Positions 1,192 to 52,451 of a stretch of DNA of 59,610 bases are shown in pieces (position 1 is the first letter of the stretch; every line of letters begins with the position of its first letter). Under the pieces are notes generated by a model, which ran no database searches, had not been told where the DNA came from, and was given only the letters and a program-made list of their open reading frames with translations. A program made the position numbers and the translations under genes. The DNA is from Marseilla massiliensis. Its GTDB lineage: Bacteria > Bacteroidota > Bacteroidia > Bacteroidales > Bacteroidaceae. The stretch is from NCBI RefSeq assembly GCF_016899855.1, contig NZ_JACJJG010000009.1:1-59610 (forward strand). Direction: 5' to 3'.

Positions 1192-1311
1192 TAATCCACT
1201 GACTACCAACAACTTACTAACAGCCTCACAAAAGGCCATCTTTTAGCTTCCAAAATACGGCCTTTTAACGCACTATTTGCCGTCTTTCACAACACGAAAG
1301 GCCATCTTTTA
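1192..1311 (+). repeat. Quadruple-palindrome array A
   Basis: Four 17-bp near-palindromes of the family YRAAAGRCSGYCTTTYR lie at 1229-1245, 1251-1267, 1273-1289 and 1295-1311 with 5-bp spacers (83 bp in all). The leader TAATCCACTGACTACCA is at 1192-1208, its CTG core 30 bp before the first palindrome. It sits between two plus-strand genes. Confidence 0.93.
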
Positions 1312-1379
1312 GAATACGCTTATTTAACGTGTATCCATAATTTTATCAGCATTCGTTTCTCCATAAGCAATATTTTTCT

Positions 1380-1387
1380 TAATTTTG
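1380..1387 (+). promoter_or_regulatory. -7 promoter box for the pectate lyase gene
   Basis: TAATTTTG matches the Bacteroidetes TAnnTTTG -7 element and lies 23 bp before the ATG at 1411. No convincing -33 TTTG was found. Confidence 0.6.
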
Positions 1388-1410
1388 CCACATTATTTAT
1401 ATAAAAAACA

Positions 1411-2643
1411 ATGCTTATGAAAACATCTACTTTACTTTTATGCGCCGCAATGCTTGCGTTGGGCGTAGTACAGACAAAGGCACAAATGTCTGAATATGAC
1501 TACAACCAGCCCGTGGGTTGGGCAACGGTCGACGGCGGTGTGACCGGCAGCAATGACGAAAATCCTATAAGAGTGACTTCGCGACAAGAACTAAACAATG
1601 CATTATCGGGTTCGACACCTGCCACTATATACATAGACGGCCAAATAGAATTTACGGGAGTGCTATCACGCTCGGGTGTGAGCAATAAGACTATATACGG
1701 ACTTCCAGGCTCAGCGTTGGTTAATCTTACTCACTCGGAAACACCAAGTCGAAGCGGTATTCTTCGCTTAACAGATTGTAATAACATTATAATACGAAAC
1801 GTTACGTTCAAGGCTTCAGGCGCATACGACATGGACGGCAACGACAATCTCGACTTGCATGGCAGCACCAATATATGGGTTGACCACTGCGATTTCCAAG
1901 ACGGAGTGGACGGAAACTTCGACTGCAACAATGGTTCGGACAACATTGCCGTTACATGGTGCCGCTTCCATTATCTTATAGAGCCGTGGCCTGATGGTCC
2001 AGGAAAATCTGACGACCACCGTTTCAGTAATCTTTGGGGAGGTTCTGACAGCGAAGAGGATAGCCCCGGACATCTTAACACCACATTCTACGCCTGTTGG
2101 TGGGACGAGGGTTGCCGCGAACGCATGCCCCGCGTGCGCTTCGGTAAAGTGCACATGCTTAATTGTTTGTATAAATCAGACATGCTGAGAAATACAGGTT
2201 ATGCAATAGGAATAGGCTATCTTGCAAGTATTTATGTTGAAAGATGTGCTTTTATAGACGTAAAAAATCCGTATAAAGACCAAACGAGTGGTTCAAAAAC
2301 GGACTATTATGTTACGTTTAAAGATTGTGAAGGCATAGATGATATAACGTTACAAGATGGAAATAGCACAGCATATGTACCTTCATACACCCTCGAAGGC
2401 ATGCCCGTCAACCAGGTAGAGACCGAGGTCAGCAAATACGCCGGCGCCACATTGAACGTTGAATACGGCGAAGGCGTGACCACGGGAATCAGCAACATAG
2501 GCGTTAGCGACGCCGATGTGGTAAGCACGGAATACTTCTCGCCGTCGGGAACAAAGCTCAACGCCCCGCAGCGTGGCCTCAACATCGTTCGCCAGAAGAT
2601 GAGCGACGGCACGGTAAGGACAAGGAAAACTATCGTAAAATAA
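1411..2643 (+). CDS. Secreted pectate lyase, polysaccharide lyase family 1
   Basis: Cleaves polygalacturonan by beta-elimination outside the cytoplasm. Seen: a signal peptide at about residues 1-25 (hydrophobic LLLCAAMLALGVV, then TKAQ), right-handed beta-helix strands, WVDHCDFQDGVDGN from 156, and the catalytic motif RxPxxR as R238-M-P-R-V-R243, both hallmarks of PL1. The last 40 residues (FSPSGTKLNAPQRGLNIV, then a basic RTRK end) resemble short C-terminal tails on many Bacteroidetes secreted proteins; whether this one is a sorting tail is inference. A second ATG at 1417 also fits the signal peptide. No SusC/D pair, oligogalacturonate enzyme or regulator is adjacent, so it is an orphan lyase here, with its own -7 box at 1380. 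Confidence 0.92.
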   Translation: MLMKTSTLLLCAAMLALGVVQTKAQMSEYDYNQPVGWATVDGGVTGSNDENPIRVTSRQELNNALSGSTPATIYIDGQIEFTGVLSRSGVSNKTIYGLPGSALVNLTHSETPSRSGILRLTDCNNIIIRNVTFKASGAYDMDGNDNLDLHGSTNIWVDHCDFQDGVDGNFDCNNGSDNIAVTWCRFHYLIEPWPDGPGKSDDHRFSNLWGGSDSEEDSPGHLNTTFYACWWDEGCRERMPRVRFGKVHMLNCLYKSDMLRNTGYAIGIGYLASIYVERCAFIDVKNPYKDQTSGSKTDYYVTFKDCEGIDDITLQDGNSTAYVPSYTLEGMPVNQVETEVSKYAGATLNVEYGEGVTTGISNIGVSDADVVSTEYFSPSGTKLNAPQRGLNIVRQKMSDGTVRTRKTIVK

Positions 2644-2710
2644 CTCTAACATAAGTAGCATGGCGGCCTAATGATTGTGCCGTCTGCTCCTTATTAAAAA
2701 CTGAAGAACA

Positions 2711-4690
2711 ATGGAAGATATGGAAAAAGACGGAGTGCGGCTGCCTGACAACGCGTTCCGCGAACTGAAGGAGGGCGAGAAATACCGCCCCGTTATGGAC
2801 CCCACGAAGGCTTATCCGGAAGTTAACGGATGGTCGGTTACGTGGGGCGTGTTGATGACTGTGCTGTTCTCGGCCGCCGCCGCGTACTTAGGCTTACGTG
2901 TGGGACAGGTGTTCGAGGCCGCCATACCAATCGCCATAATCGCTGTGGGAGTGTCGACGGCGGCAAAAAGGCGCAACCCGCTGGGCGAGAACGTCATCAT
3001 ACAGAGTATCGGGGCATGCTCGGGCGCCGTCGTGGCAGGTGCCATATTCACCCTGCCCGCCATCTACATCCTCGAGGATAAATACCCCGGCATGGGCGCA
3101 TCGTTCCTCGAAATCTTCCTCAGCTCACTGCTTGGAGGCGTGCTCGGCATACTTTTCCTCATCCCGTTCCGCAAGTATTTCGTCAGCGACATGCACGGCA
3201 AGTACCCCTTCCCCGAGGCTACGGCCACCACGCAGGTGCTCGTAAGCGGCGCCAAGGGCGGCAAGCAGGCCAAGCCTTTGCTGCTGGCCGGACTCGTGGG
3301 AGGTCTGTATGACTTTATCGTGGCTACCTTCGGATGGTGGAACGAGAACTTTACCACGCGCGTGATAGGCCTCGGCGAGACCATTGCCGACAAGGCGAAG
3401 CTCGTTTTCAAGGTAAATACCGGCGCGGCAGTGCTCGGCCTCGGCTATATCGTAGGTCTGAAATACGCCTTCATTATCTGCCTCGGCTCGCTGGCGGTAT
3501 GGTGGCTTATCGTGCCGATAATGGCCGTACTGTTCAACGGACAGGTGCTGAACCAGTGGGATCCGTCCATCACCACCGCGGTAGGCGACATGTCGCCGGA
3601 GCAGATTTTCACGTATTACGGCAAATATATCGGTATCGGCGGTATCGCCATGGCCGGCATAATAGGCATCATCAACTCATGGGGTATAATAAAGAATGCC
3701 GTCAGCCTGGCTGCAAGGGAAATGCGCGGAGGCAAGAGTGACGGCAAGCAAGTGCTCCGTACGCAGCGCGACATACCGTTCAAAATTATCGCCATCGGCG
3801 CGATAGTCACACTTTTGGTCATCTTCCTGTTCTTCTGGTTCGGCGTGATGAAGGGCAATATCCTCTTCGCCGCCGTAGGAATACTGCTCGTTGCGGTAAT
3901 AGCGTTCCTCTTTACCACCGTCGCAGCCAACGCGATAGCTATCGTCGGAAGCAACCCCGTGTCGGGTATGACGCTTATGACGCTCATCCTCGCCTCTGTC
4001 GTTATGGTGGCCGTAGGTCTTAAAGGCACAGGCGGCATGGTGGCGGCGCTCATCATGGGCGGCGTGGTATGCACCGCGTTGTCAATGGCCGGAGCGTTCG
4101 TTACCGACCTGAAGATAGGTTACTGGCTCGGCACAACGCCCCGCAAGCAGGAGACTTGGAAGTTCCTCGGCACGCTGGTGTCAGCCGCTACAGTCGGCGG
4201 AGTGATGATTTTGCTCGACAAGACATACGGTTTCGCCAGCGGACAGCTCGCCGCTCCACAGGCTAACGCTATGGCAGCGGTAATCGACCCGCTGATGAAC
4301 GGCGTGGGAGCGCCTTGGATTCTCTACGGTATCGGCGCCCTGATAGCCATCATATTGACATGGATGAAAGTGCCCGCGCTGGCCTTCGCCCTTGGAATGT
4401 TCATCCCGATAGAGCTTAACATTCCGCTGCTCGTGGGCGGAGCAATCAACTGGTACGTCACAAGCCGCTCCAAGAACGCCGAAGAGAACAAGGCTCGCGG
4501 CGAGAAAGGCACGCTCATCGCCAGCGGACTTATTGCCGGAGGAGCGCTCATGGGAGTAGTAAGCGCCCTGATTCGCTTCGCCGATGTCAACCTCATAAAT
4601 GAGGAGTGGCTGGCCAATCCGCTGTCTCAGGTCTGCGCACTCGTGGCTTACGCCCTGCTTATCACTTACTTTATAAAAGCAACAAAATAA
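2711..4690 (+). CDS. OPT-family oligopeptide transporter
   Basis: An inner-membrane secondary transporter of the oligopeptide transporter superfamily. Family members move small peptides or metal chelates, and the substrate here cannot be read from sequence. Seen: a short cytoplasmic N-terminus (about 40 residues), then some 14-16 hydrophobic segments over 659 aa, with the family-typical regions NPLGENVIIQSIGACSG near residue 91, KYPFPEATATTQVL near 163, and AIVGSNPVSGMT near 414. The length matches bacterial OPT proteins. ATG at 2711 is followed by another at 2720; either leaves the membrane domain intact. It follows the pectate lyase by 67 bp with no terminator evident, so read-through is possible, but a functional link is not implied. 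It ends against gyrB with a perfect 40-bp inverted repeat between them. Confidence 0.93.
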   Translation: MEDMEKDGVRLPDNAFRELKEGEKYRPVMDPTKAYPEVNGWSVTWGVLMTVLFSAAAAYLGLRVGQVFEAAIPIAIIAVGVSTAAKRRNPLGENVIIQSIGACSGAVVAGAIFTLPAIYILEDKYPGMGASFLEIFLSSLLGGVLGILFLIPFRKYFVSDMHGKYPFPEATATTQVLVSGAKGGKQAKPLLLAGLVGGLYDFIVATFGWWNENFTTRVIGLGETIADKAKLVFKVNTGAAVLGLGYIVGLKYAFIICLGSLAVWWLIVPIMAVLFNGQVLNQWDPSITTAVGDMSPEQIFTYYGKYIGIGGIAMAGIIGIINSWGIIKNAVSLAAREMRGGKSDGKQVLRTQRDIPFKIIAIGAIVTLLVIFLFFWFGVMKGNILFAAVGILLVAVIAFLFTTVAANAIAIVGSNPVSGMTLMTLILASVVMVAVGLKGTGGMVAALIMGGVVCTALSMAGAFVTDLKIGYWLGTTPRKQETWKFLGTLVSAATVGGVMILLDKTYGFASGQLAAPQANAMAAVIDPLMNGVGAPWILYGIGALIAIILTWMKVPALAFALGMFIPIELNIPLLVGGAINWYVTSRSKNAEENKARGEKGTLIASGLIAGGALMGVVSALIRFADVNLINEEWLANPLSQVCALVAYALLITYFIKATK

Positions 4691-4784
4691 AAGGTGAGAA
4701 GGTGAGAAAGTGAGAAGGTGAGAAAGAACAGCCAAGTTAAGCAATTCTTTCTCACCTTCTCACTTTCTCACCTTCTCACCTTTT
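4689..4784. terminator. Perfect 40-bp inverted repeat between convergent OPT and gyrB genes
   Basis: Arms 4689-4728 and 4745-4784 are exact reverse complements separated by 16 nt. Each arm iterates the 8-mer AAGGTGAG/AAAGTGAG. The right arm ends in a T-run on the plus strand, and the palindrome gives the same on the minus strand, so a bidirectional terminator is likely. The left arm begins inside the OPT stop codon. Confidence 0.85.
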
Positions 4785-4787
4785 ACG

Positions 4788-6761
4788 CTATGCATCGATA
4801 TTAGCGTACGTAGCGTTCTGCTCTATAAACTGGCGTCGTGGCTCAACGTCATCGCCCATAAGCATTGAGAACACCTCGTCTGCCTCGGTTGCGTTCTCAA
4901 TGGTAACCTGCTTCAGAAGACGTGTTTCAGGATTCATCGTAGTCTCCTTAAGCTGGTCTGGGTTCATCTCTCCAAGACCTTTGTATCGCTGCGTATGTAT
5001 GTTCTTGCCGTCTTCCTCGCCGTTTCCGTATTTATCGAGGAACGCCTGGCGTTGCTGTTCGGTATAACAGTACTCCTTAACCTGGTTCTTGTACGTACAG
5101 AGGTAAAGCGGCGGAGTGGCGATATACAAGTGTCCTTCCTGTATCACCTTTGGCATGAAGCGATAGAAGAGGGTCATTATAAGTGTGTCGATGTGTGAAC
5201 CATCGACATCGGCGTCGGTCATTATGATGATTTTATCGTAACGGAGCTTGTCAATGTTGGCCTCCTTGTCGTCTTCTCCGTCAACGCCGAAGCGCACGCC
5301 GATACTCTGTATTATGTTCATTACCGACTCGCTCTCGAACACTTTGTGCCACATCACTTTCTCTACGTTAAGGATTTTACCGCGCAAAGGCAGCACAGCC
5401 TGGTGGTGACGGTCGCGTGCCTGCTTGGCCGAACCGCCTGCGGAGTCTCCCTCGACGAGGAAAATCTCGCACTCTTTCGGGTCTTTGTTCGAGCAGTCGG
5501 CCAGTTTTCCGGGCAGTCCGCCGCCGCTCATGGGGTTCTTGCGCTGTACGCTCTCGCGGGCCTTACGCGCCGCGATACGCGCCGTAGCGGCAAGTATCAC
5601 CTTCTCGCAGATGAGTTTTGCCTCCTTGGGGTGCTCTTCAAGATAGTATGTCAGGGCTTCCGACACAGCCTGGCGTACGGCTCCGGTCACCTCGTTATTA
5701 CCCAGCTTGGTCTTTGTCTGGCCTTCAAACTGGGGCTCGGCTACCTTAATTGATATTACGGCGGTAAGTCCTTCACGGAAGTCCTCGCCGGCTATCTCGA
5801 CCTTTGACTTCTCTATCTGCTTCGATATCGACGGTTCGTTGTCGGCGTACTTCTTAAGGGTGGTGGTCAGCGCCATGCGGAATCCCACAAGGTGGGTACC
5901 GCCTTCTATGGTGTTGATGTTGTTTACGTAAGAGTGGACGTTCTCCGAATAGTCGGTGTTATACATTATTGCCACCTCGATAGGTATGCCCTGCTTCTCG
6001 GTCTTGAGGTAGATTACGTCGTCGAAGAGGTGCGTACGGTGACGGTCTATGTACCTTACGAACTCCTTTAGTCCGTCCTGGGCGTGGAATACCTCCTGCC
6101 TTGTCTTGCCCTCCTCGTCCGGACGGAGGTCGGTGAGGGTTATTTTAATACCCGCGTTAAGGTATGCCAGCTCGCGCATACGCTTGGCAATGACCTCATA
6201 CTTGAACACCGTGGTGGTGAAAATCGTGGGGTCCGGCCAGAACTGCTGGCGTGTACCGCGCTGTTGGGTCTCGCCTACAATCTTGACGGGATACAGCGGT
6301 TTGCCCTTCTCGTACTCCTGCTGGTAAATCTTGCCGTCGCGGAACACCTGCGAGAGCATATGGGTGGACAGGGCGTTCACGCACGACACGCCGACGCCGT
6401 GAAGGCCGCCCGACACCTTGTACGAGCCCTTGTCAAACTTACCTCCGGCATGGAGCACGGTCATTACGACTTCAAGGGCCGACTTGTGCAGCTTCTTGTG
6501 CTCGTCTACGGGTATGCCTCGGCCATTGTCCTGGACGGTGACAGAGTTATCCTCGTTGATTGTTACCTCTATATGAGTACAGTAACCGGCCATCGCCTCG
6601 TCGATAGAGTTGTCGACGGTCTCGTTTACCAAATGGTGAAGTCCCTTCTCGCTGATGTCTCCTATATACATCGCAGGACGCTTACGCACGGCCTCAAGGC
6701 CTTCGAGCACCTGGATGTTACTGGCTGAATAATTGCTTTCGTTTATTTGATTTTCTGCCAT
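4788..6761 (-). CDS. gyrB: DNA gyrase subunit B
   Basis: ATPase subunit of DNA gyrase, which introduces negative supercoils with GyrA. Seen: GHKL ATPase domain with Glu47 and Asn51 in ETVDNSIDEA, DNGRGIPVD, GGLHGVGVSCVNALS; transducer domain with QTKTKLGN; TOPRIM domain with EGDSAGGSAKQ and DADVDGSHI; C-terminal RYKGLGEMN. At 657 aa it lacks the large insert of the E. coli protein, as is usual in Bacteroidetes. The QARDRHHQAVLPLRGKILN stretch favours GyrB over ParE. ATG at 6761 is preceded by a -7 box (6787-6794) about 26 bp upstream. It is transcribed alone, with gyrA not in the window. Confidence 0.96.
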   Translation of the reverse strand: MAENQINESNYSASNIQVLEGLEAVRKRPAMYIGDISEKGLHHLVNETVDNSIDEAMAGYCTHIEVTINEDNSVTVQDNGRGIPVDEHKKLHKSALEVVMTVLHAGGKFDKGSYKVSGGLHGVGVSCVNALSTHMLSQVFRDGKIYQQEYEKGKPLYPVKIVGETQQRGTRQQFWPDPTIFTTTVFKYEVIAKRMRELAYLNAGIKITLTDLRPDEEGKTRQEVFHAQDGLKEFVRYIDRHRTHLFDDVIYLKTEKQGIPIEVAIMYNTDYSENVHSYVNNINTIEGGTHLVGFRMALTTTLKKYADNEPSISKQIEKSKVEIAGEDFREGLTAVISIKVAEPQFEGQTKTKLGNNEVTGAVRQAVSEALTYYLEEHPKEAKLICEKVILAATARIAARKARESVQRKNPMSGGGLPGKLADCSNKDPKECEIFLVEGDSAGGSAKQARDRHHQAVLPLRGKILNVEKVMWHKVFESESVMNIIQSIGVRFGVDGEDDKEANIDKLRYDKIIIMTDADVDGSHIDTLIMTLFYRFMPKVIQEGHLYIATPPLYLCTYKNQVKEYCYTEQQRQAFLDKYGNGEEDGKNIHTQRYKGLGEMNPDQLKETTMNPETRLLKQVTIENATEADEVFSMLMGDDVEPRRQFIEQNATYANIDA

Positions 6762-6786
6762 CTTCAGTATTGATTATATTAGCGTG

Positions 6787-6794
6787 CAAAGATA
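6787..6794 (-). promoter_or_regulatory. -7 promoter box for gyrB
   Basis: On the minus strand this reads TATCTTTG, a full match to TAnnTTTG, about 25 bp before the gyrB ATG. Confidence 0.75.
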
Positions 6795-6847
6795 ACAAAA
6801 AAAAATCGTTCTGCGAAATTTTAAATATTAAATTCTCTTGTTTAGTA

Positions 6848-7040
6848 AACAAGTGAACAAGGGACAAGCAGACGAGGAGATTATGTAAAGTGAAGAGTGA
6901 AAAATTAAGAGTGAAGAATCTAATAGTCCAATTGTTCGCAACCGACAAGACTTTTGACTTTAACTCCTAACGAAGCGGAGCGAAGTGATAACTCCTTTAA
7001 CTTCTTTAACTACCTAAAAAGCAGACGAGGAGATTTGCCC
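6848..7040. repeat. Cluster of three dispersed intergenic repeat families
   Basis: In the 665-bp gap between gyrB and the dextranase gene, 6848-6882 and 7019-7040 carry direct copies of AGCAGACGAGGAGATT, the family also found at 27714-27783 and 39111-39254. At 6895-6920 lies an AAGAGTGAAGAAT-type stretch, and 6961-7013 holds the AACTCC/AACTTC 9-mer family with GAAGCGGAGCGAAG between. Open frames across it follow the repeats and are not called. Confidence 0.7.
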
Positions 7041-7117
7041 TGCTATTGGCATAGCTTCCCGCCCTTCAATGAACACCAGCATTTTACCTATGATAACACA
7101 TTAGGGACTTTACCAAC

Positions 7118-7164
7118 AAGTCATACCGTCATTCCGTGCCTGGCACGGAATGACGGTATGACTT
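7118..7164. repeat. 47-bp perfect palindrome
   Basis: A 23-nt arm ending CATTCCGTGCC is followed by one T and its exact reverse complement. It could extrude as a cruciform or act as a bidirectional terminator. CATTCCGTGCC-type palindromes occur as dispersed intergenic repeats in unrelated bacteria, so this may be an independent small mobile repeat. Confidence 0.8.
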
Positions 7165-7272
7165 ATCAATTAAACCTTCTGATGACGGTATCCGGCTACA
7201 TGCTGACATGCATTTTCACATTTCCGCCATCTCATATTTTCACCTTTTAAAGCCTTATTTGCCGTCGCTTTA

Positions 7273-7403
7273 TAACCGTCTGGCAGTCAATGACTTAGCA
7301 GAAGGGTATTTTTAATTCTGCGAAAGACCGCCTTTCAGCTTGCGAAAAGCCGTCTTTTACACGGCAAGAGGCCGCCTTTCATAACGTAAAAGACGGCCTC
7401 TTG
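7273..7403 (+). repeat. Quadruple-palindrome array B
   Basis: Palindromes at 7321-7337, 7343-7359, 7365-7381 and 7387-7403, each separated by 5 bp. The leader TAACCGTCTGGCAGTCA is at 7273-7289, its core 41 bp before the first palindrome, the longest spacing in the window. It lies downstream of the dextranase gene and upstream of gyrB, both minus strand. Confidence 0.92.
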
Positions 7404-7426
7404 GAAAACGTACTGCCACACAAGAC

Positions 7427-9205: not shown

Positions 9206-9209
9206 CGTT

Positions 9210-10703: not shown

Positions 10704-10726
10704 CTTGTCTGTATTAAGTTAAAAGA

Positions 10727-12220: not shown

Positions 12221-12233
12221 TGTCGTTGATGGT

Positions 12234-15338: not shown

Positions 15339-15447
15339 TAACCCGTTGATATCCAGGCGGTTTGCGAAAGGCCGTGTTTCAGCCTGCGAAAGGTGGCCTT
15401 TCAGCTTCCAAAAGACGGCCTTTCATCGCCTGAAAGGCCATCTTTCG
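15339..15447 (+). repeat. Quadruple-palindrome array C
   Basis: Palindromes at 15365-15381, 15387-15403, 15409-15425 and 15431-15447. The leader TAACCCGTTGATATCCA is at 15339-15355, its core 19 bp before the first palindrome. It fills part of the 315-bp gap between GH97 and susC. The remainder holds a short CGGCGG/CCGCCG stem at 15303-15326 and nothing else recognisable. Confidence 0.93.
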
Positions 15448-21240: not shown

Positions 21241-21480
21241 GTAGCCCGTTGGCTGAATTATTTGTGCACTTATAGAGGCAGGCACTTACGGTCTATTACA
21301 TTTCAACGGCTTTTTGTTACGGTTTCCACTTGTTTACGGCAAGTATGCAAAAGACAGCCTTTTATGATGTAAAATGAGGCCTTTCAGAAGGCGAAAAGCC
21401 ATATCTTACAGGCTGAAAGGACACTATTTGAAACTGTAACTGTAGCCGTGCCACTCAATATAATTCAGCCAATGGGTTAT
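21241..21480. repeat. Inverted repeat pair enclosing array D
   Basis: 21241-21261 and 21460-21480 are reverse complements at 18 of 21 positions (shared TTGGCTGAATTAT). They bracket a 240-bp block that contains array D, between convergent recO and the reductase gene. No other array in the window has such flanks, so this may be a separate hairpin or the edges of a small non-autonomous element. Confidence 0.7.
21348..21458 (-). repeat. Quadruple-palindrome array D (divergent copy)
   Basis: Modules at 21348-21364, 21370-21386, 21392-21408 and 21414-21430 keep the 17+5 geometry exactly although several are degraded (last module TGAAAGGACACTATTTG). The leader is on the right: its minus-strand core TTGAGTGGCA ends at 21458, 28 bp from the array, and lacks the TAA part. 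It is the least conserved copy. Confidence 0.85.
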
Positions 21481-26497: not shown

Positions 26498-26606
26498 CAA
26501 GAAGCGGCCTTTTACAATACAAAAGGCCGTCAATCGCACGCCAAAAAGCCGTCTTTTGGAAAGCAAAAGGCGGCATATCGGCAATCCATTGACTACCAGC
26601 ACTTTA
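26498..26606 (-). repeat. Quadruple-palindrome array E (leader on the right)
   Basis: Modules at 26498-26514, 26520-26536, 26542-26558 and 26564-26580. The minus-strand leader TAAAGTGCTGGTAGTCA is at 26606-26590, its core 19 bp from the array. The second module, CAAAAGGCCGTCAATCG, is identical to the second module of array H. The rest of the 498-bp gap (26305-26802) holds only a GGCGGGC/GCCCGCC stem at about 26670-26720 that may end the fructokinase transcript. Confidence 0.93.
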
Positions 26607-30963: not shown

Positions 30964-31083
30964 CTGAAGACGGTCTTTCGCAGGGCAAAAGACGGTCTTT
31001 TGGTTTCTAAAAGGTGGCCTTTTGCAGGCCAAAAGGCCACCTTTTACAGACAGGATTGTAACCTATTGGGTTTCAAGTATTTA
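30964..31083 (-). repeat. Quadruple-palindrome array F (leader on the right)
   Basis: Modules at 30964-30980, 30986-31002, 31008-31024 and 31030-31046. The minus-strand leader TAAATACTTGAAACCCA is at 31083-31067, its core 30 bp from the array. It lies inside the fructan PUL, between susD and GH32. Confidence 0.94.
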
Positions 31084-36293: not shown

Positions 36294-36413
36294 TATGTCA
36301 TTGACAGCCAGACAGTTACCGTCAGGTTTGCAAAAGGCCGCCTTTCGGCTTGCAAAAGACGGTCTTTTACACTGCAAAAGGCCGCCTTTTAGCCTCTAAA
36401 AGGCGGCCTTTCG
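36294..36413 (+). repeat. Quadruple-palindrome array G
   Basis: The best-preserved copy: modules at 36331-36347, 36353-36369, 36375-36391 and 36397-36413. The leader TATGTCATTGACAGCCA is at 36294-36310, its core 30 bp from the first module. A second core (minus strand CTGAAAACCA, 36443-36434) lies exactly 30 bp beyond the last module, overlapping the hybrid sensor's stop codon, so this copy is symmetric. The 327-bp gap also holds the susC promoter and the 12-bp inverted repeat. Confidence 0.95.
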
Positions 36414-40764: not shown

Positions 40765-40790
40765 GGTTCTCCTGTTTTTTGTTCAAGCTA

Positions 40791-40888: not shown

Positions 40889-41008
40889 CAAAAGACCGCC
40901 TTTCGCCTTCCAAAAGGCCGTCAATCGCGCGCTAAAAGGCCGTCTTTTACAAGCCAAAAGACGGCCTTTCGCAAGGCTGTAAGTAATCCATTGATTATCA
41001 AGGCATTA
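40889..41008 (-). repeat. Quadruple-palindrome array H (in a divergent gap)
   Basis: Modules at 40889-40905, 40911-40927, 40933-40949 and 40955-40971. The minus-strand leader TAATGCCTTGATAATCA is at 41008-40992, its core 30 bp from the array. A second core, TTGATTTCCA at 40881, lies 8 bp left of the array. It lies in the 430-bp gap between divergent cysS and the CoA-transferase, downstream of no gene, which argues against a terminator role. The rest of the gap holds only the two promoters. Confidence 0.95.
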
Positions 41009-41139
41009 CGTTTTGTGTGAAAACCGACGGCAAACGGCGTCACGAAACGGCGGCTACGGGCGTGCCGTCAATGCGGCAATATACGGCCGCCAACTTAAAA
41101 ATATATCACGTCATGAGGCTTTTGTTGCGAAAAAATTAT

Positions 41140-42700: not shown

Positions 42701-42732
42701 CACTTGAATCCATTTATTCAACTCAATGATAC

Positions 42733-42775
42733 GCTCCCCTGCGCCAGACTGTGAAGCCGTGGCAGGGGAGCTTTT
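42733..42775 (+). terminator. Rho-independent terminator of the CoA-transferase gene
   Basis: GCTCCCCTGC (42733-42742) pairs with GCAGGGGAGC (42762-42771), loop 19 nt, followed by TTTT. Confidence 0.88.
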
Positions 42776-42928
42776 CTATAACTAACGGCCTGACGGCTGC
42801 ACGGCAACAAACTATTCACGGAGAAAAACAGACCAACAAATGCGTAAAACAGGAAAACTTTATATTATTATTAAGTTTTCTCCACCTTTTTTATAACTAC
42901 TGGCACGACCCGTTTAAAGCGTTTTCAT

Positions 42929-42936
42929 TAAGTTTG
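42929..42936 (+). promoter_or_regulatory. -7 promoter box for the DUF3943 gene
   Basis: TAAGTTTG, 40 bp before the ATG at 42977. Confidence 0.6.
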
Positions 42937-42976
42937 CACAAACAAAAAAGCCTGCTCATAACTATTAGCAAACATA

Positions 42977-43825: not shown

Positions 43826-43928
43826 GTGAATACGGCCGGTCAACAGGGGCAATCCGAAAAATATTGTAATAATATTGAAACATTGGGCATAAATCGGCAC
43901 AACTACGGCAATTATCGGAATTTTTGAT

Positions 43929-43936
43929 TAACTTTG
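43929..43936 (+). promoter_or_regulatory. -7 promoter box for the SDR gene
   Basis: TAACTTTG, 29 bp before the ATG at 43966. Confidence 0.7.
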
Positions 43937-43965
43937 CGCCCGTTTATTATTATCCGTAACTACGA

Positions 43966-44961: not shown

Positions 44962-45075
44962 GGCCTCCGGAGTTTTTCGGCCATAAGTTTTAGATGTTGC
45001 AGGGCCGCCAAAACTCAATAGAGCAACGCTGCAACGCCGTAAGACCGAACACCATATAACCGTAAAACCATACAA

Positions 45076-46044: not shown

Positions 46045-46051
46045 TTTTTCA

Positions 46052-46233
46052 GGAGTTAAGGAGTTATGTAGTAAAGGAGTTAAGACAAATGACTTGTTAA
46101 GTGAATAATCAATAATGAAAAATGAATAATCAAGTTTGCCTGTTAAGGTAATTAATTCTTCACTCTTCGTTTTTCACTCTTCACTTAACAAGTCATTTGT
46201 CTTAACTCCTTTACTACATAACTCCTTAACTCC
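46052..46233. terminator. 54-bp perfect inverted repeat between PAP2 and DUF4294 genes
   Basis: Arms 46052-46105 and 46180-46233 are exact reverse complements over 54 nt, made of AGGAGTTAAGG/AAAGGAGTTAAG 9-mers followed by ACAAATGACTTGTTAAG. The 74-nt loop continues as an imperfect stem of GAATAATCAA/GAAGAGTGAA motifs. It begins 8 bp after the PAP2 stop. Termination is likely; such a long perfect stem also implies recent origin or active maintenance. Confidence 0.85.
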
Positions 46234-46303
46234 CGAAAATCTCTTTAACTACATTATAATCTACTTTAACACCCATTTCGCAACGTATTTCCCTTAAAAC
46301 CAT

Positions 46304-46311
46304 TATTTTTG
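46304..46311 (+). promoter_or_regulatory. -7 promoter box abutting the DUF4294 start codon
   Basis: TATTTTTG ends 5 nt before the ATG at 46317, so the transcript would begin at or next to the start codon (leaderless), as at recO. Confidence 0.5.
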
Positions 46312-46316
46312 CACCC

Positions 46317-46970
46317 ATGACAAGACTTGTTGCAATCATCATTTGGGTGCTGGCGCTGGCTTTTCCGGCGGCTGCCGCTGCCCAGGCCGGCGGCGGAACT
46401 GACGACGCAAAGCCCGAGGACACGCCTGTAGACATGGACAACCCCACGTTCGTTCCGACCGTGAAGGTAGGCAAAGTGCTTGTTGACGGCGACAGCCTGC
46501 AGTACGTCGAGCTGAACAACGTGTACGTATATCCGCAGCCGACGTTCAAGAACGCCAAGCGGCGCGCCGCGTACAACCGCCTGGTGGCCAACGTTAAGAA
46601 GGTGCTGCCGATAGCAAAGGAGGTGAACAAAATCATCATCGAGACTTACGAATACATGCAGACGCTGCCCAACAAGAAGGCGCGTGACGAGCACATGAAG
46701 CGGGTTGAGGACGACATCAAGCGCCGTTACACACCAAGGATGAAGAAACTGTCGTACTCGCAAGGCAAACTTCTAATCAAACTTGTTTACCGCGAGTGCA
46801 ACTCTTCGGCGTATGACTTGATACGGGCGTTCATCAGTCCTGTACGGGCCGGCTTCTACCAAGCCTTCGCGTGGGCGTTCGGCGCAAGTCTCATGAAGAA
46901 ATACGACCCCGAAAAAACCGACCGACTGACCGAGCGTGTGGTGCTGATGGTAGAGTCGGGACAGCTCTGA
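46317..46970 (+). CDS. DUF4294 family exported protein
   Basis: Function unknown. Seen: signal peptide (LVAIIIWVLALAFPAAAAAQA), an acidic low-complexity stretch, then the family core LNNVYVYPQPTFKNAKRR at about 66-83, long charged helices with LPIAKEVNKIIIETYEYM, and KKLSYSQGKLLIKLVYREC near 140, ending with a hydrophobic FYQAFAWAFGASLM. 217 aa. It follows the 54-bp hairpin and has its own -7 box. Being conserved in Bacteroidetes and exported, it is probably periplasmic. Confidence 0.82.
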   Translation: MTRLVAIIIWVLALAFPAAAAAQAGGGTDDAKPEDTPVDMDNPTFVPTVKVGKVLVDGDSLQYVELNNVYVYPQPTFKNAKRRAAYNRLVANVKKVLPIAKEVNKIIIETYEYMQTLPNKKARDEHMKRVEDDIKRRYTPRMKKLSYSQGKLLIKLVYRECNSSAYDLIRAFISPVRAGFYQAFAWAFGASLMKKYDPEKTDRLTERVVLMVESGQL

Positions 46971-47028
46971 CGCCACACGTCCAGCCACTATCCAAGACCT
47001 CATATATAGCCCGCCGCATGGCCGGACA

Positions 47029-47148
47029 TAACCCTCTGACAACCAGGATATTACCGACAAGCGCGCAAAAGATGGCCTTTTGCAAGGTAAAAGACCGTCT
47101 TTCAGGCTATAAAAGGCCGCCTTTTACAACGCAAGACAAGGCCTTTCA
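47029..47148 (+). repeat. Quadruple-palindrome array I
   Basis: Modules at 47066-47082, 47088-47104, 47110-47126 and 47132-47148. The leader TAACCCTCTGACAACCA is at 47029-47045, its core 30 bp before the first module. It lies in the 436-bp gap between DUF4294 and PCMD genes. The rest of the gap holds an AACTATT/AATAGTT hairpin (about 47342-47364) next to the PCMD promoter. Confidence 0.93.
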
Positions 47149-47367
47149 AAACGCCGTCTGCCAGGCACCAACTATCGACTCACGCCACCACGGAGTAAAA
47201 GCGTACGGCAACATACGTCCTGAAAACGAATATTAAGAGGAATGACAACTGTAGTGAAAAACGGCTAAAACATGGACAAAATGTTCGTTTTCACAAGAAA
47301 TATGTCCGTTTTAACCTTTTCAGGTCAAAAAGAAAGGCAAAAACTATTTTATAATAAATAGTTTTCA

Positions 47368-47375
47368 TACCTTTG
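47368..47375 (+). promoter_or_regulatory. -7 promoter box for the PCMD gene
   Basis: TACCTTTG, 31 bp before the ATG at 47407, immediately preceded by a small AT-rich hairpin that may be an operator. Confidence 0.65.
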
Positions 47376-47406
47376 CAAAGGGTTCAGAAAAAACTTTGTA
47401 ATCGAT

Positions 47407-48366
47407 ATGAAACATGCCTGCAACATCATAACGGCGCTCATAATGACGCTAATGCCGATGGGCGCGGCCGCCACGGAGAAGGAAGTGTACATCTCATACG
47501 GCAACATGGACAGATGGACAATACGCAAAATCCATGAATCCGGAATCATAGGCGGCAACACCAAGACATTGTACGAGATAGGCCCCAACCGCACGATAGA
47601 CGGCAACAAGCCATACGTAAACGGCGGAGGCTCGCCATGGGGCACGTCCAACGTGATGGCAAAGGTAATGGGCGTGGTAAAGACCAACAACTCGGTTTAC
47701 CGCGACAAGCACGGCAACGGATACTGCGCCAAGCTCGTAACGCACATCGAAAGCGTAAAAGTGATGGGGCTCATGAACATGCACGTGCTCGCAGCCGGCT
47801 CAATATTCCTGGGCGACATGCGCGAGCCCATAACCGGAACAAAGGACGGGCCAAAGGCGATGAACAACGGAATACCGTTCAGCGGACACCCAAAAGCCCT
47901 GAGATATGACTACAAGGTAAAGACAACCGGCTCGCCCACACGCGTGAAACAGACCGGATTCAGCAGCAAGAAGACCATAGCCGGCAAGGACTACGCCATA
48001 ACAGTGCTATACCTTCAGAAACGGACGGAGGACAAGAACGGCAACATCACAGCCAAACGGGTGGGCACCGTGGTGGTGAAATACGGCCAAAGCACCAACG
48101 GATGGGTAAACGACGCCACGTACGAAATAATGTATGGCGACATACGCAACAACCCCCACTATGACGCCGCGACGATGGGACTACGCTCGACCGACTACGC
48201 CCGCAACAGCAAAGGCAAGAGCGTACCCGTAAAAGAGACGGGATGGGCCGCCGCTAACGAGAAGCCCACGCACCTGCTCCTACAGTTCTCGTCAAGCCAC
48301 GGCGGAGCATACATAGGCTCGCCGGGCAACACTTTCTGGATTGACAACGTAAGATTGGTTTACTGA
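47407..48366 (+). CDS. Secreted PCMD-domain protein (putative carbohydrate-binding)
   Basis: Extracytoplasmic protein with the PCMD domain (putative carbohydrate metabolism domain), a beta-sandwich family of uncertain role common in Bacteroidales. Seen: signal peptide (IITALIMTLMPMGAAA), then GTSNVMAKVMG, HVLAAGSIFLGDM, GHPKALRYDYKVK near 160, and the closing LLLQFSSSHGGAYIGSPGN with FWIDNVRLVY, all diagnostic of the family. 319 aa with no catalytic motif I recognise. It is followed after 20 bp by the Omp85-like barrel gene, so the two are one operon. Confidence 0.85.
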   Translation: MKHACNIITALIMTLMPMGAAATEKEVYISYGNMDRWTIRKIHESGIIGGNTKTLYEIGPNRTIDGNKPYVNGGGSPWGTSNVMAKVMGVVKTNNSVYRDKHGNGYCAKLVTHIESVKVMGLMNMHVLAAGSIFLGDMREPITGTKDGPKAMNNGIPFSGHPKALRYDYKVKTTGSPTRVKQTGFSSKKTIAGKDYAITVLYLQKRTEDKNGNITAKRVGTVVVKYGQSTNGWVNDATYEIMYGDIRNNPHYDAATMGLRSTDYARNSKGKSVPVKETGWAAANEKPTHLLLQFSSSHGGAYIGSPGNTFWIDNVRLVY

Positions 48367-48386
48367 TAGTAACAAAACAACATATA

Positions 48387-49571
48387 ATGACAAGACTGCT
48401 ACTCGCCGCCTTACTCATGCTTTGCACGGCCAAGGCAGGAGCCGTCACGCCCGTTGGCGAACGACAAGACACGGCAACCATAACTACAGAGCAACAGCCT
48501 GACACGGTAAAAAAGAAAAAAGGACTCATAAACTGGGTGCTCGACTATCTCAACAACACCAACAAGAACAAGAAACACAAGAAGTTCGACTTCAGCGTGC
48601 TGCCCGGACCGCACTTCAGCTCGGACACGGGATTCGGACTTGGCATAATCGGCATGGGCCTTTACCGTCAAGACCGGCGCGACTCGCTGTCGCAACCGTC
48701 CAACGTTTCCATCTTCGGAGACGTCACGACCAAAAGCTCATACACGGTCGGCATATTCGGCACACACATGTTCCCATACGGCAAGGGGCGCATAGAATAC
48801 GAAGTATCGGCCAACTATTTCAAGGAGAAATTCTGGGGAATAGGTTATGAAATGGGTAACGAAGACTCCAACGAGAGCGAGATGACCCGCTGGAAAATAG
48901 ACGCAAAGGCCAACTTCCTGTGGCAAGTGGCACGCAACATTTACATCGGCCCCACGCTGACTTACGACTATGCCTACGCCATGGAGATAGACCGTCCCGA
49001 ACTGTTGGCAGGCATGGACCCGCTCGTATGGAACATCGGAATAGGCGTCACGCTGGCATACGATTCGCGCGACATCATGACACGCCCGACAAAAGGTATC
49101 TACGCCACGGTAACACAGCTGTTCAGGCCGAAGTTTCTTAGCAACGGATACGACTACATAACTACCGACTTCAGGTTCAACACGTACGGCAGGCTATGGA
49201 AAGGAGCCGTAATCGGAGGCGACCTTCGGGGCACACTGAACTTCGGCAACCCGTCATGGGCAATGATGTCGCTGCTTGGCAACTCGTCGACAATGCGCGG
49301 ATACTATAAGGGGAGGTACCGCGACAAGCACAAACTTGAGGCCCAGGTAGAGCTGCGCCAGCACATCTGGCGACGCAACGGAGTAGTAGCCTGGGTGGGA
49401 GTCGGCACGGTTTTCGACAAGTTCAGCTCGATCCACACAGACCGTTTGCTGCCGAACTGGGGCATAGGATACCGCTGGGAGTTCAAGAAAAACGGCAACA
49501 TACGCCTCGACTACGGCTTCGGCAAAAGTGGGATACAGGGCTTCGTGTTCAACATCAACGAGGCTTTCTAA
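48387..49571 (+). CDS. Stand-alone Omp85-superfamily outer-membrane barrel
   Basis: Outer-membrane beta-barrel resembling the C-terminal domain of BamA/TamA. Seen: signal peptide (LLLAALLMLCTAKAGA), a short basic linker (KKKKGLINWVLDY), then alternating beta-strands (GFGLGIIGMGLYR, GIGVTLAYDSRD), the Omp85 RGY-type lid motif in MRGYYKGRYRDKH near 308, and a C-terminal strand ending FNINEAF with terminal aromatic, as barrel-assembly substrates have. 394 aa with no POTRA domain, so it is unlikely to act as a Bam subunit. It is co-transcribed with the PCMD gene; function unknown. Confidence 0.82.
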   Translation: MTRLLLAALLMLCTAKAGAVTPVGERQDTATITTEQQPDTVKKKKGLINWVLDYLNNTNKNKKHKKFDFSVLPGPHFSSDTGFGLGIIGMGLYRQDRRDSLSQPSNVSIFGDVTTKSSYTVGIFGTHMFPYGKGRIEYEVSANYFKEKFWGIGYEMGNEDSNESEMTRWKIDAKANFLWQVARNIYIGPTLTYDYAYAMEIDRPELLAGMDPLVWNIGIGVTLAYDSRDIMTRPTKGIYATVTQLFRPKFLSNGYDYITTDFRFNTYGRLWKGAVIGGDLRGTLNFGNPSWAMMSLLGNSSTMRGYYKGRYRDKHKLEAQVELRQHIWRRNGVVAWVGVGTVFDKFSSIHTDRLLPNWGIGYRWEFKKNGNIRLDYGFGKSGIQGFVFNINEAF

Positions 49572-49665
49572 GCCGGAAAGGCGCCTGTTGCAGGCCGTCA
49601 TATAGCCAACGGCGTCCCAGGCTGCCGCTTATCAACCATCAGACAAACTGTAATCAACCAATAAA

Positions 49666-51366
49666 ATGAAACCCTGCAAGGACATACTGAAGGCCTGCGT
49701 GTCAGCACGCAGCCTCTTTTTTATAACCATATTGGTGCTTGCCCTGCCCAATGTGGCGCTTTGCCTCACCGAGAGAATGGGCCTGATGGCATGCGTTACC
49801 AACGTAGTGCTGCCCGTGGCGGCCGTCTGGCTGCTGATGACCCTCAACCGTTGTCCGGGCAAGATGACGTGGATACTCTTCCTGCTCATCTTCTTCGCCG
49901 CCTTCCAGCTTGTGCTGCTGTACCTCTTCGGGCACTCTATAATAGCCGTTGACATGTTCCTCAACCTCGTGACAACCAACCCTGGAGAGGCTCTCGAACT
50001 CCTTGACAACCTCATTCCGGCGGTAATCGGCGTTGTGGTTGTCTATATTCCGGTACTTGTTTTTGCCGTCGTTTCCATCCGCAGGAAAGACCGCCTGCCG
50101 TGCGACTTCATGCTGCGCCAGCGCCGCTACGCCGCCGTAGGCATTGCCGCGGGCGCCGTATGCCTGGGCGTAACGTACGCAAGCGACAAGGATTATCGTG
50201 CCGAACTGCACCTGTATCCCGTCAACGTGTTCTACAACTTAGGGCTGGCGGTTGAGCGGACATGCGCCACCAACAGCTACGCAGATACCTCGGCAGACTT
50301 CACTTTCAACGCCAAGGCCACCCATCCGGCTGCCGACCGCGAGGTGTACGTCTACGTAATAGGCGAGACCGCGCGTGCATGCAGCTTCAGTCTGTACGGC
50401 TACGGCCGCGAGACTACGCCCATGCTGGCGCACGAAGAGGGAGTAATCGCATTCCCGAAAGCCGTGACACAGTCGAACACTACCCACAAGAGCGTACCCA
50501 TGTTGCTGTCGGCGGCCTCGGCTGAGGACTATGACCGCATATACAAAGAGAAGGGAATAATCACCGCGTTCAAGGAAGCGGGCTTCCATACGGTGTTCAT
50601 ATCCAACCAGTTACCTAACCACTCGTTCATCGACTTCTTCGGCGAAGAGGCCGACCAGTGGGTATTTCTCAAGGAAAGAAAGGGCTACGACCCGTCACAG
50701 GGAGACGAAGCAATGCTGCCCGAGATAAGGAAAGTGCTGGCCGAAGGGCGCCGCAAGGAGCTGATTGTGCTGCATACGTACGGCTCGCACTTCAACTACC
50801 GCGAGCGTTATCCGCGCCAAGCGGCAGCCTTTACGCCGGATGACGCAACAGAGGCGAAGGCAAAGAACAGGGCGTCGCTCGTCAATGCGTACGACAACAC
50901 GATACGTTACACCGACCGCCTGCTGGCCTCGATTATATCAGAACTGCGCGGTACGGGCGCCGTGTCGGCTCTGCTCTACACGTCAGACCACGGCGAAAAC
51001 ATCTTCGACGACAGCCGCCGCCTGTTCCTGCACGCCTCGCCCGTGCCCTCGTATTACGAACTTCACGTACCGCTAATAGTCTGGACGTCAGACGGATACA
51101 GGCAAAGATACGCTACGGTAACGGCCAGTCTCACGGCCAACCGCACCAAACGAATAGCCACGAGCGCCTCGGCGTTCCACACAATGCTGACCATCGCCGG
51201 CATAGACACGCCCCTGCGCAACGACAGCCTCTCGGCAGCCAGCTCCCTGTTTACCGTCAGGCCATACGTTTATCTTAACGACCACAACCGTGCCGTGCCC
51301 GTAACCGGCCTGCTGAGAAGCGAAAAAGACTTTGAGATGTTCAAGGAAAAAGGAATAAACTTATAA
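49666..51366 (+). CDS. Lipid A phosphoethanolamine transferase-like (EptA family)
   Basis: Inner-membrane enzyme that transfers phosphoethanolamine, by family knowledge to lipid A or other envelope glycans. Seen: five N-terminal transmembrane segments (to about 165), then a periplasmic sulfatase-fold domain with VIGETARACSFSLYGYGRE near 233 (metal Glu), the nucleophile candidate Thr in SNTTHKSVPMLL near 270, HTYGSHFNYRERYP near 370, and SDHGEN near 445 (metal Asp and His). 566 aa, standard. It starts 94 bp after the Omp85-like gene and ends at a perfect hairpin. Target (lipid A or another lipid) is unproven; family members affect cationic-peptide resistance. Confidence 0.9.
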   Translation: MKPCKDILKACVSARSLFFITILVLALPNVALCLTERMGLMACVTNVVLPVAAVWLLMTLNRCPGKMTWILFLLIFFAAFQLVLLYLFGHSIIAVDMFLNLVTTNPGEALELLDNLIPAVIGVVVVYIPVLVFAVVSIRRKDRLPCDFMLRQRRYAAVGIAAGAVCLGVTYASDKDYRAELHLYPVNVFYNLGLAVERTCATNSYADTSADFTFNAKATHPAADREVYVYVIGETARACSFSLYGYGRETTPMLAHEEGVIAFPKAVTQSNTTHKSVPMLLSAASAEDYDRIYKEKGIITAFKEAGFHTVFISNQLPNHSFIDFFGEEADQWVFLKERKGYDPSQGDEAMLPEIRKVLAEGRRKELIVLHTYGSHFNYRERYPRQAAAFTPDDATEAKAKNRASLVNAYDNTIRYTDRLLASIISELRGTGAVSALLYTSDHGENIFDDSRRLFLHASPVPSYYELHVPLIVWTSDGYRQRYATVTASLTANRTKRIATSASAFHTMLTIAGIDTPLRNDSLSAASSLFTVRPYVYLNDHNRAVPVTGLLRSEKDFEMFKEKGINL

Positions 51367-51390
51367 GATATAAATTAAAAATCAAGGGCC

Positions 51391-51493
51391 GGGGAATTAA
51401 GAATTAAGAGTTAAGAATTAAGAAAATATGCTTTGCCAAAGATTGCAGCAAAAGTATCTTTCTTAATTCTTAACTCTTAATTCTTAATTCCCC
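51391..51493. terminator. Perfect 35-bp inverted repeat between convergent EptA-like and ferritin genes
   Basis: Arms 51391-51425 and 51459-51493 are exact reverse complements with a 33-nt loop, each iterating AATTAAG/AGTTAAG. It fits a bidirectional terminator. The same core recurs at 53297-53471. Confidence 0.85.
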
Positions 51494-51516
51494 AGCTTTT
51501 GATTCTTAATTAAATT

Positions 51517-52041
51517 CTACTCAGCCGAGCCGCTCAGGGGTGCAGCCTGCGTATAGGTACGTGCTCCAAGCTCCTTGTCGAGCATGTAAATGCCGTAGCC
51601 GTTGTCCTTTATCATCTTGATGTTATCGATGATAGTCTGGGCGTTCTCTTCCTCTTCCACCTGCTCGTCGATAAACCACTTCAGCATGCTTTGCGTTGCA
51701 AAGTCGTTCTTGTCGTGCGTCAGCGCGTACAGGTCGTTAATCATCGAAGTAACCTTCTGCTCGTGCTTGAGCGTGCTCTCGAACACGTCGAGTATGCCGT
51801 CCCACTCTGTCGGAACCTCGGCGATAGGCCTCAGCGTAACTCGGCCGTTGCGTGAGTTGACGTAGTTGAACAGTATCTTGGCGTGGTCTTGCTCCTCCTG
51901 GAACTGTACTTCAAACCAGTTTGCCATACCGGGCTGGCCCGCAGAGTGGCAGTAAGCAGCCATTGAAAGATACAAGTAGGCCGACCACATCTCGGCGTTA
52001 ATCTGCTCGTTGAGAGCCTCTTCAATCTTCTTGTTTAACAT
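51517..52041 (-). CDS. ftnA: Ferritin
   Basis: Cytosolic iron-storage cage of 24 subunits that oxidises Fe(II). Seen: four-helix bundle with ferroxidase Glu17, Glu50 and His53 in EEQDHA, Glu in HEQKVTSMI and EQVEEEENA; 174 aa, nonhaem FtnA-like (no haem-binding Met pattern of bacterioferritin is obvious). The last 12 residues are a small polar tail. A -7 box at 52149-52156 would give a leader of about 100 nt. It is convergent with the EptA-like gene. Confidence 0.95.
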   Translation of the reverse strand: MLNKKIEEALNEQINAEMWSAYLYLSMAAYCHSAGQPGMANWFEVQFQEEQDHAKILFNYVNSRNGRVTLRPIAEVPTEWDGILDVFESTLKHEQKVTSMINDLYALTHDKNDFATQSMLKWFIDEQVEEEENAQTIIDNIKMIKDNGYGIYMLDKELGARTYTQAAPLSGSAE

Positions 52042-52148
52042 AACAGTATATTTTTAAAGTTGATATTCTGCAAAACGGGGAGCAAAAACAGTGCCAACGC
52101 CCTGAGACTGACGTTTTTTCAGCCCCGTGTCAGCACTTGCCGACACTG

Positions 52149-52156
52149 CAAAAATA
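52149..52156 (-). promoter_or_regulatory. -7 promoter box for ferritin
   Basis: Minus strand TATTTTTG, 107 bp before the ATG, implying a long 5' leader. Confidence 0.5.
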
Positions 52157-52343
52157 ATGAAAATATCGCCACGCCGATACCCACGCCCCCGATAATTATC
52201 ATTTATTAGCACTCGCGGGCCATGCCCTCAGCCTGTAAAAACTACACCGCCGGCCATAACGTCGGCCCCGCTGGCCACCCTACTAAAAGGCCAACCGATA
52301 CCCGACATCACGGCTCCGATAAAGCCGTTTATGACCTGCGGCG

Positions 52344-52451
52344 TATTCACTTGATACTCAATACGTTATAAAAGGCCGTCTTTTGGACGCTAAAACACGG
52401 CCTTTTAGCCTGCGATTGATGGCCTTTTGGAAGCCAAAAGACGGTCAATTA
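52344..52451 (+). repeat. Quadruple-palindrome array J
   Basis: Modules at 52369-52385, 52391-52407, 52413-52429 and 52435-52451. The leader TATTCACTTGATACTCA is at 52344-52360, its core 18 bp before the first module. A second near-core (minus strand TTGAATGCCG) lies 41 bp beyond the last. The third module is the reverse complement of the special module shared by E and H, with one difference. It lies in the 447-bp gap upstream of ferritin, otherwise without recognisable features. Confidence 0.92.

Follow-up and report, generated by a model that had tools for sequence, protein, structure and literature searches.

The window analysed here, a 59,610-nt stretch forming contig C321 of a 3.49-Mb genome (G000; 321 contigs, 99.6% complete), carries typical Bacteroidales polysaccharide-utilization and housekeeping genes, with ten short arrays of inverted repeats lying between them. 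Judged by one protein, the closest named relatives are uncultured Prevotella and Prevotellaceae genomes and Xylanibacter rarus. The initial annotation had described the ten arrays as rigidly spaced sets of four self-complementary modules, and we found all ten where it had placed them (Table 1). Each unit spans 83 bp and comprises four 17-bp modules separated by 5-bp spacers, giving a 22-bp period; as described before, all 30 spacers measure exactly 5 bp, and the arrays occupy eight tandem, one convergent and one divergent gap. The 40 modules deviate from the consensus by 0–4 mismatches, the highest value being reached by A3, D3 and D4. At three or fewer mismatches, the window contains 42 matches to the consensus, comprising 37 array modules and 5 others, one of which overlaps the end of array I. 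A search of the whole window against Rfam at gathering thresholds matched no family apart from one tRNA.

Table 1. Arrays of the window, with their hairpins, DNA folding scores and surroundings.
Array	Coordinates	Strand	Hairpin 1	Hairpin 2	Fold z	Remarks
A	1229..1311	none	1229-1267	1273-1311	-2.7	
B	7321..7403	none	7321-7359	7365-7403	-4.4	23 bp from the stop codon of a GH66 gene
C	15365..15447	none	15365-15403	15409-15447	-4.9	both hairpins visible
D	21348..21430	none			-2.4	degenerate, hairpins unclear; convergent gap between recO and an aldo-keto reductase gene
E	26498..26580	none	26498-26536	26542-26580	-5.5	both hairpins visible
F	30964..31046	none	30964-31002	31008-31046	-7.4	second hairpin with a full 17-bp stem
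G	36331..36413	none	36331-36369	36375-36413	-6.1	second hairpin clear, first not
H	40889..40971	none			-4.4	divergent gap between cysS and an acetyl-CoA hydrolase family gene
I	47066..47148	none			-2.2	hairpins unclear; 95 bp past the stop codon of a DUF4294 gene
J	52369..52451	none	52369-52407	52413-52451	-4.4	both hairpins visible

The unit of the array is a predicted pair of hairpins. Modules 1 and 2 (M1 and M2) would form one and modules 3 and 4 (M3 and M4) the other, each with a 17-bp stem and a 5-nt loop, and the two stand 5 nt apart. Folded as DNA, the arrays of the window gave z scores between −2.2 and −7.4; the two hairpins were clearly visible in C, E, F and J but not in D or I. Adjoining modules are reverse complements of each other, a relationship that the initial annotation had missed. 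Across 164 arrays of this genome, module covariation exceeded that of shuffles for M1–M2 (z 6.6) and M3–M4 (z 9.2), whereas M2–M3 pairing fell under expectation (z −2.7) despite having the same geometry, and self-pairing of module halves showed no compensation (z 0.0, −0.3, −1.9 and 1.7). The weaker likenesses, inverted for M2–M4 (z 3.9) and M1–M3 (z 2.3) and direct for M2–M3 (z 3.6) and M1–M4 (z 2.8), fit a module order X X' X' X.

Half-sites (h1–h8) gave the same picture, with covariation in nested stem pairs (h2:h3, h1:h4 and gap 1:3; h6:h7, h5:h8 and gap 5:7) that was seen in the 164 arrays and again in 87 arrays of relatives (stretches of genome G004 and loci L138–L153). Within modules, half-site pairing was weak in this genome (z 2.0 for h1:h2, 2.4 for h7:h8, and 0.7 and −0.4 for the remaining two) and was lacking in the relatives (0.0 to −1.8). 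In an ungapped alignment of the 61 of 147 arrays that scored at least 62, covariation of the double hairpin was 0.284 compared with 0.211 (standard deviation 0.007) after shuffling, and doubly changed cells numbered 208 compared with 134; none of 500 shuffles reached either value. Covariation within modules was 0.165, compared with 0.172 in shuffles (408 of 500 as high), and that of M2–M3 was 0.173, compared with 0.219 (500 of 500 as high). We therefore rejected both the self-palindromic module as the unit, given the lack of any covariation excess within modules, and M2–M3 pairing, which lies below all shuffles; the four independent palindromes proposed at first give way to modules that pair 1 with 2 and 3 with 4. 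The helical phasing suggested in the initial annotation was borne out in a finer form, as 6-bp half-sites of alternating orientation placed one per 11 bp.

These counts come from a sample made up of the window and 80 further stretches of the genome, 1,500,831 bases in total. Its array density is biased upwards, as stretches were initially picked on contigs with known matches; a whole-genome covariance-model search scored 150 of 1,725 candidates, and the array counts given here refer to the sampled DNA. A four-module score of at least 54 out of 68 was reached at 147 merged places. The best score in one first-order Markov copy of the sampled DNA was 44, compared with 54–68 for the real arrays, and we rejected chance as their origin. 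Lowering the threshold to 49 gave the 164 arrays, on 27 contig pieces (1,446,698 bases), 26 of which carry at least one array. Strict module pairs with a gap of 8–10 bases number 123 in the whole genome, and the count stays at 123 when the gap is free to range from 0 to 30 bases, so that no strict pair lies outside periods of 21–23 bp; the period is 22 for all 50 strict pairs listed. Four good modules without extension make up 141 of the 164 arrays, while 13 have fewer than four modules and 11 have one to three extra, one array belonging to both groups. In the sampled DNA, the plain four-module form is the rule. Of 189 profile matches, 7 contain an indel, which in two of the 7 lies right at the end; the profile was built without gaps and thus disfavours gapped matches.

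The arrays are intergenic and use every class of gap. With genes called by our own codon-usage heuristic rather than a published caller, tandem gaps hold 81 of the 164, divergent gaps 44 and convergent gaps 28; a further 9 lie at edges, and each of the remaining 2 overlaps a called gene. Divergent gaps of 500–1,000 bp are occupied in 24 of 30 cases. Arrays in tandem gaps sit at a median of 85 bp past the stop codon, and those in convergent gaps reach the stop codon; in divergent gaps, none comes nearer than 63 bp to a start codon. Read on the sense strand, the stems of tandem-gap arrays have 267 G–T and 260 A–C mismatches, a balance that gives no sign of selection on a transcript. The use of all gap classes and the lack of G–U bias agree with the initial view that the arrays are intergenic and act on DNA rather than on transcripts.

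The arrays are also more evenly spaced than the gaps available to them. Among intergenic gaps of at least 130 bp on the 27 contig pieces, 151 of 482 contained one array and none contained two, with the proviso that array starts less than 150 bp apart were merged, so that two arrays so near would count as one. The coefficient of variation of array distances was 0.569, compared with 0.785 (standard deviation 0.056) for gaps of matching class and length, the lowest of 1,000 draws being 0.629. Distances of less than 3 kb made up 3.1% of the total compared with 21.3% in matched gaps, and both members of a gap pair were occupied in 4 of 281 cases at less than 3 kb, 48 of 411 at 3–6 kb and 89 of 697 at 6–12 kb. 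That a second array is rare at distances below about 3 kb had escaped the initial annotation. The sample's longest stretch without arrays, 57 kb (L041–L043; about 23–80 kb of contig C111), carries conjugative-transposon and sugar-nucleotide genes (10 proteins scanned), and an array-free 20 kb elsewhere (L050; the first 20 kb of C244) carries restriction genes and an integrase (5 proteins scanned).

Orthologous gaps tend to share arrays. For synteny we used genome G004 (mean protein identity 74%) and loci L138–L153 as relatives. Of the syntenic gaps of at least 150 bp, 11 were occupied in both, 1 only in this genome, none only in the relative and 27 in neither (Fisher 7e-9). With array length removed, the Fisher value for shared occupation was 8e-7 at 200 bp, 4e-5 at 250 bp and 0.1 at 300 bp. 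When all relative gaps of at least 60 bp were taken, the counts were 11 in both, 1 in this genome only, 3 in the relative only and 62 in neither. Arrays of shared gaps had a mean identity of 51.6 of 83 positions, compared with 46.2 for random arrays. Among the window's arrays, the gap of array H also holds arrays in L139, L144 and L146, and the position of array I, after the DUF4294 gene, holds one in L138–L142 and L145.

In more distant relatives, the pitch is kept with other letters. Of 299 genomes of the genus, 12 had strict dimers of the consensus; one of the 12 (G212) has another geometry. Of 80 named loci compared, arrays were found by the consensus of this genome in 11 of the best 16 (L138–L142, L144–L148 and L153) and in 2 of the other 64 (L174 and L181), those of L153 and L174 having another core. 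We then scanned 1.14 Mb of these 64 loci, all Prevotellaceae, without regard to sequence, for eight 6-bp half-sites in alternating orientation at a variable step. The 11-bp step gave 53 matches, compared with 9, 11, 4, 5, 0, 1, 0, 3 and 2 at steps of 8, 9, 10, 12, 13, 14, 15, 16 and 17, and a second-order Markov copy gave none. With a looser threshold the 11-bp step gave 72 matches, present in 41 of the 64 loci, compared with 7–24 at steps 8–14 and 2 in the Markov copy. The same scan gave no match in 100 kb of E. coli and no excess in 0.25 Mb of other Bacteroidales families (three AT-rich matches at step 11, three at step 10). Core letters differed, being for example TTGTAG-N5-CTACAA in Hoylesella loescheii, CAAAAG with a different inner gap in Hoylesella nanceiensis and TTGCCC-N5-GGGCAA in Prevotella pectinovora. 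Of 57 matches selected by a mean score of at least 0.55 together with a looser second criterion, none overlapped called genes by over half, at 84% coding; tandem gaps held 33 of them, convergent gaps 10 and divergent gaps 4, and 10 lay at edges.

A covariance model of the double hairpin matched 14 of 16 chosen genus genomes and none of 4 genomes from other families. When 117 more genomes of the order were searched, for the most part a single one from each family, 11 had a match, of which just one was strong (G334, E 1.5e-6); its locus (L284) is a double hairpin with a different core and the 11-bp pitch. The eight other loci examined (L285–L292) were not double hairpins at this pitch. Two hairpins each, with differing stems, were found at L281 and L282.

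The reading we favour, to which we would give about an even chance, is that the array, two adjoining 39-bp inverted repeats on an 11-bp half-site pitch, is a likely DNA-level landmark of the core chromosome and a candidate site for a dimeric protein between transcription units. Because the geometry recurs in related species with different letters, the arrays likely mark chromosome sites handled by a protein. Their evenness, their restriction to one per gap, their avoidance of promoters and of the mobile DNA examined, and the sharing of orthologous gaps all fit a chromosomal landmark. The 11-bp pitch, about one helical turn, would align the half-sites on one face of the helix for cooperative binding of a dimer. 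The two hairpins might be extruded as cruciforms or fold on single strands, where each arm would present a 6-5-6 operator on the folded strand, and the role could be chromosome organization or insulation between transcription units.

Several results weigh against this reading. Neighbouring gaps of at least 250 bp were both occupied in 60 of 282 cases, close to the 56.2 expected, and exclusion between arrays is visible in distance only, not in gap order. The shared-gap count comes from 8 distinct gaps of this genome, and when both gaps exceed 300 bp the signal fades, with 3 cases occupied in both and 2 in neither (p 0.1). A pair of arrays separated by 1.6 kb (L121:3708-3790 and L121:5332-5414) is identical at 82 of 83 positions within unrelated flanks, the identity stopping at the borders; the pair looks like a copied unit or a conversion tract, either of which gives the same picture. 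Just 70 of the 164 arrays have a hairpin with at least 14 of 17 Watson–Crick pairs, so cruciforms cannot be required in each copy. Within-module partners deviate jointly 152 times, compared with 82.8 expected, and half of these deviations are complementary. Divergent gaps are poor in arrays in other Prevotellaceae (4 of 47 classed), unlike in this genome. Strict searches for three other cores found one dimer, three overlapping dimers (one array) and five near-identical dimers, and so few copies of single cores fit poorly with one sequence-specific protein per genome. Finally, we found no binding protein for the arrays.

The main rival to the landmark reading is a mobile origin resembling that of REPINs (repetitive extragenic palindrome (REP) doublets forming hairpins), in which a transposase that recognizes hairpins would insert new copies of the 83-bp unit between genes, held apart by target immunity. 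We regard this as possible, if clearly less probable than a landmark. The copies are dispersed, intergenic, hairpin-forming and family-like; the near-identical pair at L121 is alike only as far as the array borders, exclusion within 3 kb could come from target immunity, and one filled gap of this genome has an array-free ortholog in G004, though no clean empty site. The initial annotation had named mobilization by a REP-associated tyrosine transposase (RAYT) as an alternative, and here the evidence divides. Searches for Y1_Tnp (PF01797, the RAYT family) found no gene in G000, despite its 99.6% completeness, or in G102, whereas 16 of 26 chosen genus genomes have one, including 6 of the 8 richest in strict dimers (G089, G164, G189, G004, G077 and G297). 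Among 20 Y1_Tnp loci examined of 32 listed, 8 of them in genomes with strict dimers, none had an array of the core found here less than about 1.5 kb away (the best score was 46, below the threshold of 49). One RAYT-like protein of 175 aa, encoded at L230:1312-1839 in G089, has relatives in G077 and G297 and no arrays of this core flanking it; no relative of it was found in G000, G102, G004, G164 or G189, five of the eight array-rich genomes. We provisionally rejected mobilization by RAYT for this genome, as no transposase gene was detected in it and no array of this core lay beside the 20 Y1_Tnp loci examined. Arrays in shared gaps, moreover, are barely more alike than random ones, yet their geometry is kept with few indels, which speaks against the REPIN-like reading.

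We consider it unlikely that the arrays are simply tandem operators for a dimeric protein, their neighbour pairing being a by-product of replication hairpins in which template switching copies one arm to the other. Such a mechanism is known in general for quasi-palindromes, and this reading would account for inverted half-sites that are conserved within modules too, for pairing that ranges from perfect to poor between arrays, and for the lack of G–U bias. By contrast, compensation is limited to modules 1–2 and 3–4, with 2–3 below all shuffles; a blind mutational process should treat all three junctions alike, which weakens this explanation. Transcription terminators or mRNA-stabilizing hairpins at gene ends are far less probable still. 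The position of tandem-gap arrays shortly past the stop codon, the rarity of arrays in divergent gaps of other Prevotellaceae and an ordinary terminator-like hairpin at the DUF4294 array position in some relatives all point towards them. However, 44 of the 164 arrays lie in divergent gaps, G–T and A–C mismatches are balanced on the sense strand here and number 20 and 35 in other Prevotellaceae, the 3' flank profile contains no T-tract, and in L140 (genome G004) a separate terminator-like hairpin stands ahead of the array. An RNA hairpin or terminator was therefore rejected as the general case.

Among known systems, matS, parS and Noc sites are short palindromic chromosomal sites for dimeric proteins, single and of constant sequence. 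A likeness to them would explain the even spacing and orientation independence of the arrays, which differ in having four modules and letters that shift between lineages. REP, REPIN and bacterial interspersed mosaic elements with their RAYTs are, like the arrays, intergenic, present in high copy number and built of hairpin-forming inverted repeats with compensatory changes (PMC2817692, PMC3116915, PMC3733652, PMC6006769), and REP and REPIN sequences likewise form inverted doublets and vary in their letters between species (PMC2817692, PMC3116915, PMC3733652, PMC6006769). The arrays thus show the REP-type trait of intergenic inverted repeats with compensatory changes. Compared with REP and REPIN elements, they differ in their fixed two-hairpin unit with 17-bp stems and 5-nt loops, in their frequency in divergent gaps, even spacing and shared orthologous gaps, and in the failure to detect a RAYT in this genome. 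A GTAG- or CGTC-type tetranucleotide at the hairpin foot was not seen in the flank profile of 125 of 147 arrays (those with a score of at least 57 and complete flanks), which showed ends of the TTG and CAAA type only.

Two repeats of related bacteria were also compared. PINSR of Prevotella intermedia, a 188-bp intergenic repeat with 177 and 184 copies that was judged non-coding, resembles the arrays in its intergenic position, its occurrence in related bacteria of one family and its lack of terminal inverted repeats (PMC4755523); it is 188 rather than 83 bp long (PMC4755523), and a link to the arrays is possible. BrickBuilt of Porphyromonas gingivalis consists of 23-nt direct repeats without spacers and has IS5-like terminal repeats, with 19 copies totalling 10,276 bases in one strain (PMC4596501). 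It too belongs to the Bacteroidales, is intergenic and has short-period repeats with predicted stem-loops (PMC4596501), but the 22-bp period and inverted neighbours of the arrays set them apart from this miniature inverted-repeat transposable element. In the open-licence literature on repeats of Prevotella, Bacteroidetes and P. gingivalis and on hairpins, tandem palindromes, cruciforms, REPINs and nucleoid proteins, no title or abstract opening among the matches listed mentions an 83-bp array with a 22-bp period.

A bolder form of the landmark reading, which we put forward tentatively and hold to be doubtful, is that Prevotellaceae possess a landmark read by shape and not by letters: a double-hairpin array every few kilobases between transcription units, with half-sites at the 11-bp pitch, its geometry constant and its letters rewritten in each lineage, serving a candidate new protein family that would space, insulate or bridge the core chromosome and set it apart from mobile DNA. 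As landmarks, the arrays would represent a genome-wide layer of organization in a major gut and oral bacterial family that standard annotation has overlooked; homology searches are nearly blind to them because geometry, not sequence, is conserved. In that case they would also offer a clean system for studying the co-evolution of sites and their partners, in which the choice between selfish repeat and chromosome organizer becomes directly testable. If they are mobile, they are hairpin elements that do well although the genome lacks the REP transposase expected of such repeats.

Downstream of DUF4294 genes, 9 of 61 loci among the other 64 had an array, compared with 1.3 expected from density over all DNA; intergenic density alone may explain much of this excess, and we build no claim on it. 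At this position, L139 (10706), L141 (10684) and L145 (10640) have five modules, one of which stands alone between two hairpins, and L138 (9150-9254) also has five, its second hairpin being imperfect. The letters of these five-module arrays differ per species. Near-identical arrays at L061:13514-13596 and L109:12955-13037 have flanks that are alike for some 40–60 bp on both sides, and perhaps belong to a longer repeated element with a different core. The five near-identical TTGCCC-N5-GGGCAA dimers (L262–L266, in the P. pectinovora genome of L214) perhaps also lie within a repeated element. Locus L286 (G408, another Bacteroidales family) holds a long direct array with a unit of roughly 21 bp and no alternating half-sites.

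A strand-oriented motif like TTGAYWATCARNNNNTTAC adjoins some arrays, for example at 1199-1217, 36301-36319 and 40991-41009 of the window. In G000, the form TGAYWATCANNNNGTTAC occurs 26 times; it was rejected as part of the array unit, being present in 25 of 40 genomes, including other families without arrays. Of the strict copies of the flanking motif in the sample, 14 of 21 lie within 60 bp of an array, and 10 of these 14 stand 11 bp before or 8 bp after it.

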